NCBI GenBank assembly: GCA_002774365.1
Contig: PEYM01000086.1
Span: forward strand, 1 to 40,577
Source of the DNA: Candidatus Saganbacteria bacterium CG08_land_8_20_14_0_20_45_16
GTDB taxonomy: Bacteria; Margulisbacteria; WOR-1; O2-12-FULL-45-9
DNA: 40,577 nucleotides
Reading direction: 5' to 3'
Part shown: positions 14,980 to 31,630 of the stretch, piece by piece
Numbering within the stretch: position 1 is the stretch's first letter
Layout: each line of letters opens with the position of its first letter
Made by a program: the position numbers and the translations under genes
Notes under the pieces: model-generated
Database searches by the model: none
Told to the model about the DNA's origin: nothing
What the model saw: the letters and a program-made list of their open reading frames with translations, nothing else

Positions 14980-15000
14980 AGTCTCCCCAATTTATCTTTC

Positions 15001-17004
15001 CTAACCCTGACTAAACAACTTAGCTAAGGCTCCGGGAGTTTGCTCCTCATAAATAATCAACCACTGTTTAGCAAAATCTTCTCGAGTCGTGGGAGTATTA
15101 CAATCAATCACAACATTTTTAAAGACCCACGCTCGTCCTTCATCAGGTAACATGTCATAATACGATTCAAATCCATATTGAGCCCTCAACTCAGCAAGCA
15201 ATACCTCTTCATGATAAAAATATAATCTTTTTTGCCAAGGGAACTCGTCAACAATAGTCGCGGCAGTTTCAAAAGATGCCTCAGCTGCTATTTTCATCTT
15301 TTCTAATTCATCCCTAACAACATAGAAAAAAGCATCTTTAGCTATTGCTTCAGAATACTTTGGGCCAGTGATTTTCTGATGCTTTGCGTGAATTGCAGCA
15401 ACAGCCTCGCCTGATAATCTTTGCCGAGCAAGCGACAGATAATCACGGCCACTCCTGAAAGACTCAATCCTGGCAATCGCCCCTTCTACCTGCTCTCGTA
15501 ACCACTGCCAAGCAACTTTCTCCTCAAATCGAGCAATGGCTCTATCACGCGACCGACTCCGCATTACTCCGTGAGCATCCATTTCATAAGTAAAACAAGC
15601 ATCAACAGGATTTTGTTTTTCCCACGTCTCAAATTCAGCTAATGCTTTGGTTTTAATCTCAGCTTTTTGCGCTTCAGTCATAAACCTTTCAGGCAAAGCC
15701 TTCCCATCACTAAAGTATTCTATTGGCAAACGAGTCAAGACCTCTTGGGCAGTTAAAGGGGTGGAAAAAACAGGGGCTCTATTTCCCTTAATAAAAGCTT
15801 GATCTGCGGCAATTTCTTCACGAGAAATAATTTTTGCATTATCTGGTCCATTTGGGTCGAAAAAAAGGTCTAGACACTTTTCTCTTAGTACTCCTAAAAC
15901 ATCCTTGTAGTCCCGGGTTGGGGCAGCCAAAGCAGCAGCAAGCTGGGCCTCCTTCAGCATCGCCCCAACTGAGCCTGGCTTCGCTTTTTCCTTGTTAACT
16001 AACCATCGTAGAGCTGCAGATTCAAAATTTACGTCATCCGAATTATAAACAGGCAGAATCCCTCGACCCAAGCACCAACGCTTCCCCTCATCTGGCAACA
16101 TCTCATAAAATGACCTATACCCATATTCCTTCTGCAGCCGAATAATTTCCAGCTCAGTAATATCTAGTTTTGCCGGAAGAAGGGGTCCCAGCCCATTAAC
16201 ATCTGCTGGGGCTGGTGGAAGTGGCTGCGGTAGGGGTGGCGAGATTGCGGGTGGTAGCGCCGGCGCCTCAGTCGATGCTTGAGGCTCAAAATCACCAGAA
16301 ATATAAACCGGCAGACCGCTCCTGCTCCCAACTCGCATATAGAGTAAATCATTGGGCTGCAACTCAAACTTATCTTCAAGTGTCTGCTCAACAATTTCTA
16401 ACTTAAAATTTCGCACCCCTCCTGTACGAAACTTAGGGATATTATAAGAGTGAAGAACAAATTGATCGCTCGCCTCTTTTTCTCCCTCAAGCACGAAGAA
16501 GGCTGCTCGATTATCAAATCTTGGTGATGTAGCATCAACACGACATAAAGCATAGATTGTGATCGCTCCGGCTTCTCTTTCTCGCATCACTAACACTGGC
16601 TCAAAACCAAGAACAGTTGCATGTGGTTTTTGGCCTGTATAATCAATCGTCAGCTGGTTATCTTCCAGCACAGCAGTACCACGATCAATTACTCCCTTTT
16701 TAAGTAACATCTTGGTATTAATTGGCAAACCATTAGCCCCTGGTTTTGAGCCGATATTTAATGGTTGACTATGACCAAAGTCAAAAGAGCAGCCAGCCAA
16801 AAGCATCCTAAATTGCCCAACCGCAACCTGCTCTGTTTTTTTTCCAAGAAAAACCTTTCTAAATAAACTTCTAGATGCTTCAAACAAGTGAGGCAGCTGA
16901 AACTCGCTCGCTCTCTGACCTGCCCTAAAACTCTTTAAATTAACTCGGGAATGATAACTATAAAAAAAGGTTTGTCCTCTCAAGCTACTATCAAAACCAC
17001 TCAT
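15001..17004 (-). CDS. Unrecognised 667-residue protein with a duplicated YGY...LPDEG domain
   Basis: I do not recognise the family. Residues 1-240 look like a beta-rich module (LAGCSFDFGHSQPLNIGSKP, then LTIDYTGQKPHATVL and AITIYALCRVDAT). A proline-rich linker covers about 243-272. A domain at about 283-352 (LQKEYGYRSFYEMLPDEGKRW..., ending KPGSVGAMLKE) recurs at 602-667 (LRAQYGFESYYDMLPDEGRAW..., ending TPGALAKLFSQ), so the C-terminus is a duplication of the middle domain. Between them is a Lys/Glu-rich helical region with a DRAIARFEEKVAWQWL segment. There is no signal peptide or membrane segment. An AGGAGG ribosome-binding site precedes the ATG. It is a single gene, convergent with accA and divergent from hicBA. 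Role unknown. Confidence 0.7.
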   Translation of the reverse strand: MSGFDSSLRGQTFFYSYHSRVNLKSFRAGQRASEFQLPHLFEASRSLFRKVFLGKKTEQVAVGQFRMLLAGCSFDFGHSQPLNIGSKPGANGLPINTKMLLKKGVIDRGTAVLEDNQLTIDYTGQKPHATVLGFEPVLVMREREAGAITIYALCRVDATSPRFDNRAAFFVLEGEKEASDQFVLHSYNIPKFRTGGVRNFKLEIVEQTLEDKFELQPNDLLYMRVGSRSGLPVYISGDFEPQASTEAPALPPAISPPLPQPLPPAPADVNGLGPLLPAKLDITELEIIRLQKEYGYRSFYEMLPDEGKRWCLGRGILPVYNSDDVNFESAALRWLVNKEKAKPGSVGAMLKEAQLAAALAAPTRDYKDVLGVLREKCLDLFFDPNGPDNAKIISREEIAADQAFIKGNRAPVFSTPLTAQEVLTRLPIEYFSDGKALPERFMTEAQKAEIKTKALAEFETWEKQNPVDACFTYEMDAHGVMRSRSRDRAIARFEEKVAWQWLREQVEGAIARIESFRSGRDYLSLARQRLSGEAVAAIHAKHQKITGPKYSEAIAKDAFFYVVRDELEKMKIAAEASFETAATIVDEFPWQKRLYFYHEEVLLAELRAQYGFESYYDMLPDEGRAWVFKNVVIDCNTPTTREDFAKQWLIIYEEQTPGALAKLFSQG

Positions 17005-17051
17005 CTTTTTGCCTCCTGTTTTTCTAGAAAACTTCTATCAGCCACCACCTC

Positions 17052-17080
17052 TTTACACCCCGCCCAAAACCACCTATAAT
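17052..17080 (+). promoter_or_regulatory. Promoter of hicBA
   Basis: TTTACA (17052-17057), exactly 17 nt, then a perfect TATAAT (17075-17080). The hicB start (17130) follows a GGGAGGA ribosome-binding site. Toxin-antitoxin promoters are usually repressed by the antitoxin; the AT-rich ATTATCGTTAATTAATAA stretch just after the -10 box could be the operator, though no strict palindrome is proven. Confidence 0.65.
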
Positions 17081-17129
17081 ATTATCGTTAATTAATAACA
17101 AAAATTTCACTTGGGAGGAAACAAAAAAA

Positions 17130-17348
17130 ATGGTCAAACAAGAAATGATCTTTATGGTTGAGGAAGACCCAGAAAGCGGCTATACCGCTAAGGCGCTTGG
17201 CTATTCAATCTTTACTGAGGCGGAAACCTTAGACGAATTAAAAAAGAACATCAAAAATGCCTTGGATTGCCACTTTGATAATAAAACAGATATTCCAGCA
17301 GTAGTGATCCTTCATATTGTTAGAGAAGAGACCCTAGCTTATGCCTAA
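17130..17348 (+). CDS. hicB: HicB-family antitoxin (short form)
   Basis: The 72-residue protein matches the HicB/UPF0150 domain: FMVEEDPESGYTAKALGYSIFTEAETLDELKKNIKNAL has the strand, the SGYTAxxxxx turn and the TLDEL helix that form the partial RNase-H-like fold used to neutralise HicA. The C-terminal DNA-binding domain found in longer HicB proteins is absent, so autoregulation might need the toxin complex or another factor. The 3' end overlaps hicA by 8 nt, and the antitoxin comes first, the reverse of the commonest hicAB order. Function by family, not shown here. Confidence 0.75.
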   Translation: MVKQEMIFMVEEDPESGYTAKALGYSIFTEAETLDELKKNIKNALDCHFDNKTDIPAVVILHIVREETLAYA

Positions 17349-17592
17349 AATACCAAGGGATATTTCTGGCAAAGAATTAGCCAAATTGCTTGGCAAGAAA
17401 TTTAGTTATCAACTTGTGCGCGAGGTCGGCAGCCATATTAGATTGTCTTGCACACGTTCGAGCAACGAGCATAAGCTCACAATCCCTGATCACAAAACAA
17501 TAAAAATTGGAACATTAAATAGTATCCTAAAAGATATAAGCGATTATCTTTCAATTAGTAAAGCAGAACTTTTAAACAAACTGTTTGAATAG
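17341..17592 (+). CDS. hicA: HicA-family mRNA interferase toxin
   Basis: HicA toxins are small double-stranded-RNA-binding-fold proteins that cut mRNA, with one catalytic His. The 83-residue product shows ISGKELAKLLGKK (helix 1) and the GSHIRL motif with His32 in the expected place, then LTIPDHKTIKIGTLNSILKDI, the strand and final helix. It overlaps the antitoxin gene by 8 nt. Its stop (17590-17592) is one nucleotide before tRNA-Leu(CAA), so the tRNA may share its transcript. The typical family length is 60-85. Confidence 0.8.
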   Translation: MPKIPRDISGKELAKLLGKKFSYQLVREVGSHIRLSCTRSSNEHKLTIPDHKTIKIGTLNSILKDISDYLSISKAELLNKLFE

Positions 17593-17593
17593 T

Positions 17594-17678
17594 GCCGCTG
17601 TGGTGGAACTGGCAGACGCGCCTGACTCAAAATCAGGTGGGGTATACCCCCGTGACGGTTCAACTCCGTCCAGCGGCA
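17594..17678 (+). tRNA. tRNA-Leu (CAA)
   Basis: Type II tRNA with a long variable arm. Acceptor GCCGCTG/CAGCGGC, discriminator A, anticodon stem CCTGA/TCAGG with loop CTCAAAA (anticodon CAA, codon UUG), T arm GACGG TTCAACT CCGTC. CCA is not encoded. It begins 1 nt after the hicA stop. Confidence 0.93.
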
Positions 17679-17691
17679 GTTAACTCACCAA

Positions 17692-17775
17692 GCCGCGGTG
17701 GTGGAATTGGCAGACACGCATGATTCAGGTTCATGTGGGAGCAATCCCTTGGAGGTTCAAGTCCTCTCCGCGGCA
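17692..17775 (+). tRNA. tRNA-Leu (CAG)
   Basis: Acceptor GCCGCGG/CCGCGGC, discriminator A, anticodon stem CATGA/TCATG with loop TTCAGGT (anticodon CAG, codon CUG), long variable arm, T arm GAGG TTCAAGT CCTC. CCA is not encoded. It lies 13 nt after tRNA-Leu(CAA). Confidence 0.93.
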
Positions 17776-29308: not shown

Positions 29309-31630
29309 ATGAAAAGAATATTTTTTATTTTGTCGTCTATTTTTTTATTCAGTCTACCTGTTTGGGCCAGTTGGACAACAGAAGCCCAAGATATTAGCGC
29401 CCAAACTTACTATGACGTTCAATTTATTGGCGAAAAAATCGGTTTTGCGGTTGGGGATAAGGATACTTTTGCCACTAGCACTGACCGAGGCATCAATTGG
29501 ACCTCTTCAACTATTGCCGGTATTTCTACTTATGCCTGGTATGGCCTTTGTTTTTTAGATAGCCAAGAAGGTTTTGTCTGCGGTAGTGACGGCAACAATC
29601 CATCAAAACCAAAAATTTATGCCACAACTAATGCTGGCTCATCATGGAGCAATAAATCACCAGCCAGCTATAGTATCAATGGATCAATTGTCTATGATGT
29701 CTTTTTCCTAAATAGCACTACTGGCTGGGCCGGTGGATCAGGCAACAGTTTTTCCCCAGCTCAAAATTATTATTACACTAGCAATGGCGGAGTAAGCTGG
29801 ACACTAGAAGCAATTGAAGATACCAATCAGAACGCCTACCCAGAGATCAGAGAGCTTTATTTTAAAGATGCTTCTAACGGCTGGGCAGCCGGCAGACAGA
29901 CAGGCATGGGCGGTTATGTTTTTAACACTACTGACGGTGGTCTCACTTGGTCTCGACAACTTGGCAGCTCATCATTTCTAGAGCTTTATGGACTTGCTTA
30001 TCTATCTTCCGGCGGTAACGATCTGCTTTGGGTTACAGGGGGGGGGGCAGGGGGAGGCAGTAGCACTAATCAGTTCTATTCCTCGGATGATGGCGGCAGT
30101 ACCTGGACCTCAACAGTTTTTGATGTTTGGCCAGGAATGCGTAGCATCTCTTTTATTGATAAATACACTGGTTATTGTGTTGGAAACCAAGGAACAATTT
30201 ATAAAACAACTAATGCTGGTTCAGCTTGGACGTTAGTTGATTCTGGAACTACGCGAACTCTGCAAAAGGTCCATTATTACAACAGTTACAATGCTTGGGC
30301 TGTGGGCGGCGGTAACCCTGGTCGGATTATCCTAAAAGATGTCACCAATCCAACCATACTTTCTGTTGATCCCGCCTCTGGCAGCCAAGGAGACTCCCTC
30401 TCGGTTTTGATCACTGGGACTAATATTCAAGGCGATCCTCTAAGCTTTGGCTCTGGCATTACAGTCAATTCATTTGCCGTGGCAGGCGAATCAAACACCG
30501 AAGGCCTAGCTGATATCACCATTGACCCTGCTGCCTCTGTTGGCAATAGGGATATAACTTTAACTAATCCAGACTCAGGAGAAGTCACATCTGTCAACGC
30601 CTTTGCTGTCAATGACTCAACTACTACAACTACCACAACTACCACAACCATAACGACAACAACAACTACAATAACGACGACAACTACTACTACTACTACA
30701 ACTACCACAACCATAACGACAACAACAACAACAACTACAATAACGACGACAACAACTACTACTACAACTACCACAACCATAACGACAACAACAACTACAA
30801 TAACGACGACACTACCATCACCCACTACTACGACAACAACTACCAGTGTCCCACCCACAACCATTACCGCCACAACAACTGCCACAGTTACCTCAACTAC
30901 AGTAGCCAGCACAACCACAGTCACTATCACAATAACTACAACAACAATAACAACTACCACAACAACCATGACAACAACTACTACTATTACCAGCACCACC
31001 CTTAGTAACCCAACCCTTAACAGAGTAAATCCTAATAAAACCCAGGTACTTGAAAGCAGTGGTAAAGAAATTACTTTGATCCTTATTGGCACAAATTTTG
31101 CAGAGGGCGCTAGCGTTAAATTGACCAAGGCTGGACAATCAGACATTATTGGCACAGTTAATAGCGTTAGTAGCGACGGCACTACCATCAATGCTAAGTT
31201 CACCCTGCCGGCAAAAACCCAGGAAGGGACGATTGGCTATTGGGCTGCAGTAGTCACTAATCCTAACAGCCAGAGTGCCACGCTACCACACGCTTTTGCT
31301 ACTTCATATGCCGGTGTTTTCTTTTATCCCAATCAACTCTCTTTCCATGGCCTCCAGTCAAGCGCTACCACTTCAGCCGCTAGGATTGTCTACAATCTCA
31401 GCGCGGATACTCCAATTGAGGTCGTTATCTATGATATTCGGGAAATGAAAATTGTCTACCGCAGAAAATACGCCAGCGGTCAAACTGGCGGCAGCAGTGG
31501 CTATAACGAGATCCAATGGAACGGCCAGACGGATTTTGGCCACACCATTGCTAACGGCACTTATGTGTTGCAGATCTATTCTTCTAGAGGAGAAATAATT
31601 GGTCAAACTTATTTTGTGGTCAAAGATTAA
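29309..31630 (+). CDS. Secreted Ycf48-propeller protein with Thr-rich stalk and FlgD-like C-terminus
   Basis: The 773-residue protein has a signal peptide (MKRIFFILSSIFLFSLPVWA). Residues about 22-345 form Ycf48/BNR-like propeller repeats (repeated GWAxGxxG...TTNAGxxW blocks, for example STDRGINW, ATTNAGSSW, NTTDGGLTW). An IPT/TIG-like domain follows (350-432), then a 129-residue Thr-rich tract (438-566) that is almost pure Thr with Ile, a second IPT-like domain (570-670) and a C-terminal FlgD-like Ig sandwich (about 680-773: AARIVYNLSADTPIEVVIYDI to GTYVLQIYSSRGEIIG). Such C-termini occur in secreted surface proteins, sometimes as sorting tails. A G10 run (30038-30047) sits in the propeller. 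It heads the cluster with the strongest promoter in the window. Function unknown; adhesion or structure is a guess. Confidence 0.75.
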   Translation: MKRIFFILSSIFLFSLPVWASWTTEAQDISAQTYYDVQFIGEKIGFAVGDKDTFATSTDRGINWTSSTIAGISTYAWYGLCFLDSQEGFVCGSDGNNPSKPKIYATTNAGSSWSNKSPASYSINGSIVYDVFFLNSTTGWAGGSGNSFSPAQNYYYTSNGGVSWTLEAIEDTNQNAYPEIRELYFKDASNGWAAGRQTGMGGYVFNTTDGGLTWSRQLGSSSFLELYGLAYLSSGGNDLLWVTGGGAGGGSSTNQFYSSDDGGSTWTSTVFDVWPGMRSISFIDKYTGYCVGNQGTIYKTTNAGSAWTLVDSGTTRTLQKVHYYNSYNAWAVGGGNPGRIILKDVTNPTILSVDPASGSQGDSLSVLITGTNIQGDPLSFGSGITVNSFAVAGESNTEGLADITIDPAASVGNRDITLTNPDSGEVTSVNAFAVNDSTTTTTTTTTTITTTTTTITTTTTTTTTTTTTITTTTTTTTITTTTTTTTTTTTITTTTTTITTTLPSPTTTTTTTSVPPTTITATTTATVTSTTVASTTTVTITITTTTITTTTTTMTTTTTITSTTLSNPTLNRVNPNKTQVLESSGKEITLILIGTNFAEGASVKLTKAGQSDIIGTVNSVSSDGTTINAKFTLPAKTQEGTIGYWAAVVTNPNSQSATLPHAFATSYAGVFFYPNQLSFHGLQSSATTSAARIVYNLSADTPIEVVIYDIREMKIVYRRKYASGQTGGSSGYNEIQWNGQTDFGHTIANGTYVLQIYSSRGEIIGQTYFVVKD
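30620..31005 (+). repeat. Degenerate ACN triplet array encoding poly-Thr
   Basis: About 386 bp of ACT/ACA/ACG/ACC codons with scattered ATA. It contains three close copies of a longer unit, starting ACTACCACAACCATAACGAC at 30638, 30701 and 30767 and each ending ATAACGACGAC, 63 and 66 bp apart. This shows expansion by duplication of blocks, not only by triplet slippage. After 30810 the array becomes less regular (ACC and CCA interruptions). Confidence 0.85.

Follow-up and report, generated by a model that had tools for sequence, protein, structure and literature searches.

The window analysed here, a stretch of 40,577 nucleotides, comes from a member of the Saganbacteria, an uncultured lineage related to Cyanobacteria. 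We found that the reading frame of 667 codons reported by an earlier note does lie at positions 15001 to 17004, on the minus strand, where it is preceded by a Shine-Dalgarno sequence. The gene, here P0001, is convergent with accA and divergent from a putative hicBA pair, beyond which stand two tRNA-Leu genes, and it is single-copy in its own genome (G000). Its GC3 is 0.347, compared with 0.45-0.56 in the other measured genes apart from hicBA, in which GC3 is likewise low (0.411/0.333). The features of the locus are as follows.

15001..17004, minus strand: P0001 coding gene, 667 aa, with residue 1 at 17004 (ATG at 17004, stop codon at 15003-15001).
17012..17017, minus strand: Shine-Dalgarno AGGAGG of the P0001 gene, 7 nt before the ATG, read from the sequence.
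16270..16827, minus strand: N-terminal beta domain, residues ~60-245, from homology to P0002, P0003 and a protein of genome G030, and from a low-confidence model.
16180..16287, minus strand: proline-rich linker, residues 240-275, with 12 Pro of 36.
15949..16158, minus strand: helical unit 1 (u1), residues 283-352, from the duplication and a module profile score above 2000/2000 shuffles.
15259..15546, minus strand: degenerate further helical unit or units, residues ~487-582 (helix / GRDYLSLA / helix / helix), from the module profile and the helix register.
15004..15207, minus strand: helical unit 2 (u2), residues 600-667, from the duplication and a module profile score above 1999/2000 shuffles.
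17130..17592, plus strand: putative hicB-hicA pair, the divergent neighbour, from the pattern of two small ORFs; context and not part of P0001.
17593..17775, plus strand: tRNA-Leu(CAA) and tRNA-Leu(CAG), the far side of the locus, which is conserved in related genomes.

We searched P0001 against Pfam, NCBIfam, PHROG, PADLOC and the PDB sequences and obtained no match, in Pfam not even at E<=10. Relaxed cut-offs in the family libraries yielded chance matches only (spore_lon_C, E 0.18), as did searching the PDB with the profiles. Additionally, P0001 or its N-domain returned nothing from phage and plasmid records (tblastn) or from a scan of viral and genome contigs. No defence family matched P0001, and the module proteins described below were matched by such families at chance level only. 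Upon running the profile search of the repeated units that the earlier note had proposed, we found no significant match to a described domain. The suggestion of a new protein family therefore stands in that neither the units nor the whole of P0001 significantly match a described domain, whereas the limits of the domains had to be redrawn and relatives were found. The pieces of P0001 recur in related uncultured bacteria, which indicates a real new family and not a stray reading frame, and the proteins in which they recur resemble components of a network for signalling or defence.

Among 57 relatives searched, a single homologue was found, P0002 (531 aa), encoded in a genome of the same family and another genus (G008). 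Its residues ~6-211 align with residues 29-238 of P0001 at 25% identity (E 8e-9), and the homology of the two proteins is taken from this N-domain part, as in the full-length alignment the C-terminal halves pair by chance. The P0002 gene occupies the same locus: accA is followed by P0002 on the opposite strand and then by tRNA-Leu(CAA) and tRNA-Leu(CAG). P0001 is thus less isolated than first thought; the position between accA and hicBA was correctly described, and the gene does not sit there alone in the sense of lacking a counterpart. No hicBA adjoins P0002 at this locus, so linkage to hicBA is not conserved. Elsewhere in the family and order, several genomes have the tRNA-Leu pair and rho immediately after accA, or carry other inserted genes at that point; the gene itself is present at the accA/tRNA-Leu site in 2/16 of the order genomes with accA. 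In the accA tree, which is weakly resolved, G000 and G008 are not sisters, so the gene was either ancestral and later lost in places, or inserted repeatedly. The composition of the P0002 gene is that of its own genome (GC 0.594 vs 0.578 in accA). That the gene has stayed in place in two genera, its N-domain still alignable at 25% identity, implies long selective retention. As a separate observation, in some relatives the space from accA to the tRNA-Leu genes (14980-17775 in the window; L003-L017 in our locus set) is empty, in others it contains hicBA, a peptidase judged by eye to be of the M13 type, or further ORFs, and it is an insertion hotspot.

When the N-domain was searched by profile across 74 genomes of the phylum, a third copy was detected in P0003 (806 aa, G023; E 6.6e-6), the C-terminal end of which is a metallophosphatase domain (PF00149, 4.7e-11). 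A fourth copy, spotted via a module profile match at the other end of the protein, lies in a 531-aa protein of G030 and scores 15.8 bits (E 4.4e-4) with a three-sequence HMM, the best of 1000 shuffles reaching 6.8. P0001, P0002 and the G030 protein thus combine the N-domain with the helical module, and P0003 combines it with a metallophosphatase; this pairing with differing partners across four proteins points to one exchangeable domain. In the AlphaFold model of P0001, built from a four-row alignment, 11 strands are placed in residues 65-223. About half of the top 50 matches of this model in a PDB fold search belong to the SMAD/FHA superfamily, with the best at E 0.12 and none at E<=0.001; they come from independent families, namely SMAD2/3, IRF-3, Ki67, Rv1747, GarA, FhaA, APLF, ArnA and OdhI. 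The structure prediction that the earlier note had called for therefore does place strands in the N-terminal part and helices in the C-terminal half, at low confidence (mean pLDDT 46.6).

Furthermore, the order of motifs in the N-domain, IG[ST]..NGLxI / LExDHxAID / LxVLGxxSVLV / LQPNDxhLxxG, parallels the FHA series IGR / SRxHA / NGT / LxxGDxIxhG. We also observe that P0003, in joining the N-domain to a metallophosphatase, has the same pairing as a true FHA protein of the class in G013 (FHA 1.3e-9, Metallophos 1.4e-8). The N-domain differs from FHA (PF00498), with which it shares a predicted all-beta composition of ~11 strands, in giving no sequence-profile match, in its core of ~145 residues vs ~70-100, and in the phosphothreonine-binding R (IGR), S (SRxH) and N (NG), which are not conserved in the four rows: the IGR position reads IGS/VGT/VGT/absent, there is no SRxH, and no NG stands at the expected place. 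Against 12 Saganbacteria FHA domains, hhalign returned a probability of 0.1% and the N-domain HMM scored none of them. Since hhalign is negative and the phosphothreonine-binding residues are lost, we claim only the type of fold and not FHA membership: the N-domain is probably a divergent FHA/SMAD-type fold, as the low-confidence model and the reading of its motifs suggest. The N-terminal module reported as beta-rich and unrecognised is accordingly beta-rich in the model, whereas "unrecognised" no longer applies to a domain common to four proteins and of probable FHA/SMAD type. Separately, FHA proteins of Saganbacteria (L065-L074), usually a single one per genome, carry a metallophosphatase, a transglutaminase-like domain or, judged by eye, an HExxH protease-like domain.

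Turning to the remainder of P0001, the linker of residues 240-275 is proline-rich as had been claimed, and the protein appears soluble, no membrane segment being seen (best 19-residue Kyte-Doolittle mean 0.84). The reported duplication was confirmed: u1 (residues 283-352, YGYRSFYEMLPDEGKRW) and u2 (residues 602-667, YGFESYYDMLPDEGRAW) reach a Smith-Waterman score of 109 when aligned, the mean for shuffled sequences being 23.6 (sd 4.6, maximum 50; 0/1000 as high), and share the pattern YG[YF]x-S[FY]Y-[ED]MLPDEG. The two copies are therefore genuine, whereas the 70-residue unit is not a whole domain; it is the helical half of a module of ~190 aa, and this half is present in P0001 in at least three degenerate copies. 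The model places helices at residues 284-294, 296-301, 305-313 and 327-338 of u1 and predicts an all-helical C-terminal half with its helices in unit register. Against a helical-half profile from which P0001 was left out, shuffles scored as high in 0/2000 cases for u1, 1/2000 for u2 and 3/2000 for the region 350-598; these shuffles do not preserve helical periodicity, and the support for the units is good, not overwhelming. The module profile matches within P0001 at 484-504 and 504-551, and single units reach 0.4-8.5 bits each. When the profile was built without P0001, the protein ranked first among the non-members of 289 ORFs with 10.3-11.3 bits, the next scoring 7.1 and the known members 73-123. 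The signature of the helical half, a YxxMxP turn followed by an A-x-x-WL helix, is present in P0001; the sheet half (LxLTxNGSLxxI ... TSxxxLA) and the C-terminal helix of the module are absent after its units, both in the sequence and in the model. The shuffle tests and the top rank among non-members indicate that the C-terminal half of P0001 is built of three or more degenerate helical units and has no sheet. In having tandem degenerate helical units of ~65-95 residues after a linker, P0001 resembles HEAT, TPR and similar scaffold repeats, from which its units differ in lacking a profile match and in having a signature of their own, YG-x-x-S-[FY]-Y-x-MLP ... A-x-x-WL.

The module itself was delimited from a profile that combined u1 and u2 with the unit of P0002, which retrieved proteins in G008, G007 and G029, and from an improved profile, which retrieved proteins in G002, G030, G029, G023, G020 and G024. 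It spans ~190 aa and occurs in 11 proteins of 8 Saganbacteria genomes of the class. For the G002 member, residues 76-262 were modelled with pLDDT mostly ~85-93; the module there consists of three helices and a seven-stranded sheet, with one more helix at the C-terminus, and a fold search against the PDB and viral structures gave no match at E<=0.001, with TM-scores mostly 0.1-0.35. A PP2C/SpoIIE-like phosphatase, considered for the sheet half from its motifs, was ruled out by the topology of the model and by the lack of any such fold match. An alignment of N-domain fragments with the full module set was misaligned and was left out of the analysis. The module genes of G007 and G008 both lie between pyrE and tRNA-Thr/tuf, and that of G007 (L023:1269-1667) looks internally deleted relative to its G008 homologue (132 vs 236 aa).

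Upon examining the surroundings of the module in other genomes, we found that in both G023 and G024, downstream of the module gene, there are genes encoding a vWA-like protein, a pyruvate-kinase/HpcH-like barrel and a PurA-like protein (PF00709, 2.2e-52). The vWA-like protein has a DxTGSM or DVSGSM motif and no Pfam match, and the G023 operon has in addition another module gene and a gene for a ClpB-like AAA+ protein. In G029, the module and vWA genes share one contig, and vWA, barrel and PurA genes share another. The operon vWA protein occurs in only 3/74 genomes (G023, G024 and G029), and a related vWA/barrel/PurA set with two vWA-like genes was found on a Jorgensenbacteria contig. The loci of this set, the Jorgensenbacteria one included and the module not being present at each, are the following.

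L054:3889-8185
L052:2439-8125
L061:153-3734
L064:882-5743

Most module proteins begin with a leader domain of ~70 residues (MxxxKLISF...LRxxGxPxAKxLI), of which we counted 65 copies in G029, 44 in G002, 24 in G024 and 5 in G023 (examples: L087, L095, L096, L099, L104 and L054:3889-4713). The leader is fused to FGE-sulfatase, WD40, HEAT-like and unknown domains. It is undescribed, and its architecture is EAD-like, that is, like that of effector-associated domains, for which the record number of proteins is 22 per genome (PMC7159879). Likeness to the EAD / vWA-MoxR ternary systems (Kaur et al. 2020, PMC7159879) extends to the small non-enzymatic modules carried on FGE, WD40 and HEAT proteins and, in the relatives of P0001, to the linking of shared modules with a vWA gene cluster. 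In contrast, P0001 has no leader and its genome no such cluster, and PurA-like and pyruvate-kinase-like enzymes are not described in the published systems as far as searched ('adenylosuccinate' is absent from PMC7159879). Leader genes were also often seen in tandem arrays (e.g. contig C27 of G002).

In the genome of P0001 itself, the leader HMM has no match and gives P0001 0.8 bits, so this terminal shared adaptor domain is lacking; the operon vWA protein likewise has no match there. We observed 13 Pkinase matches and no canonical FHA protein at E<=1e-6 in this genome, from which pieces of kinase/phosphatase-type signalling are present. The reading frame, the duplication, the N-domain homology in four proteins, the link between units and module and the lack of an enzyme-family match are shown directly; from them we infer a fold for the N-domain, partners and a scaffold role. 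Our tentative proposal, which we regard as quite possible, is that P0001 is a soluble, non-catalytic modular scaffold or adaptor of Saganbacteria. The N-terminal beta domain would dock one partner, the array of three or more degenerate helical units in the C-terminal half would dock a second, and the flexible proline linker would separate the two docking parts and give them reach; P0001 may thereby act in the cytoplasm and bring signalling proteins of the kinase/phosphatase type together. No part of P0001 is described in the libraries searched; its working mode, that of modular adaptor proteins, is probably a known one, and its pieces are not.

The surroundings of the module in relatives could also be read as placing P0001 in a conflict or stress network of the EAD/vWA kind, as a detached component that senses or relays an invasion or stress signal. 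The module lies in or beside the vWA/pyruvate-kinase-like/PurA operon in G023, G024 and G029, with a related Jorgensenbacteria set; the leader, at 65, 44, 24 and 5 copies, has FGE, WD40 and HEAT fusions as in EADs (PMC7159879); and P0001 combines an atypical GC3 (0.347) with a patchy distribution. We nevertheless consider this rather unlikely, since its own genome has neither the leader nor the operon vWA protein, P0001 lacks the sheet half of the module, and defence families match neither P0001 nor, above chance, the module proteins. The same low GC3, common to P0001 and hicBA (0.347; 0.411/0.333), would also suit accessory cargo of an insertion hotspot at the tRNA-Leu pair, kept with or by hicBA and having no conserved cellular role, as would the relatives in which accA directly precedes the tRNA-Leu pair or different inserts, and the presence of the gene in only 2/16 order genomes with accA that are not sisters in the accA tree. 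Such an origin is unlikely in view of the long selective retention implied by the shared spot and the 25% N-domain identity in two genera, and of the P0002 gene, whose GC (0.594, against 0.578 for accA) is in line with its own genome and which lacks an adjoining hicBA. Finally, the C-terminal half might itself bind a ligand, such as a lipid or nucleotide, or have catalytic activity, instead of simply being a docking array. Weak matches of the module model to PH domains and to CYTH-like 1yem/2dc4, and the association of the module with nucleotide-handling genes, point in this direction, yet no match reaches E<=0.001, TM-scores are mostly 0.1-0.35, the PH and CYTH matches concern the sheet half that P0001 lacks, and no conserved polar site is evident in the units, which makes this reading very unlikely.

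Beyond the proposed scaffold role of P0001, a wider and doubtful interpretation is that the protein is a branch of a Saganbacteria-specific modular interaction network, built from a divergent FHA-like domain, the helical-sheet module and the 70-aa leader (one 2.2-Mb genome has up to 65 proteins with it), and wired in some genomes to the vWA/pyruvate-kinase-like/PurA-like operon, which may make a nucleotide-type signal. If so, the network would be a lineage-specific counterpart of the adaptor-based conflict systems of multicellular bacteria, with testable building blocks; if not, they remain new protein families from a phylum in which few have been annotated. In either case, an apparent lone orphan has led to undescribed domains, with the module in 8 genomes and as many as 65 leader-bearing proteins in a genome; what surprises more is found in the relatives, namely the expansion of the leader and an operon that joins a vWA protein to paralogues of two metabolic enzymes.

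Elsewhere in the window, at 29309-31630, we observe a secreted-looking repeat protein of 773 aa with a long Thr-rich linker (TTTTTTITTTT).
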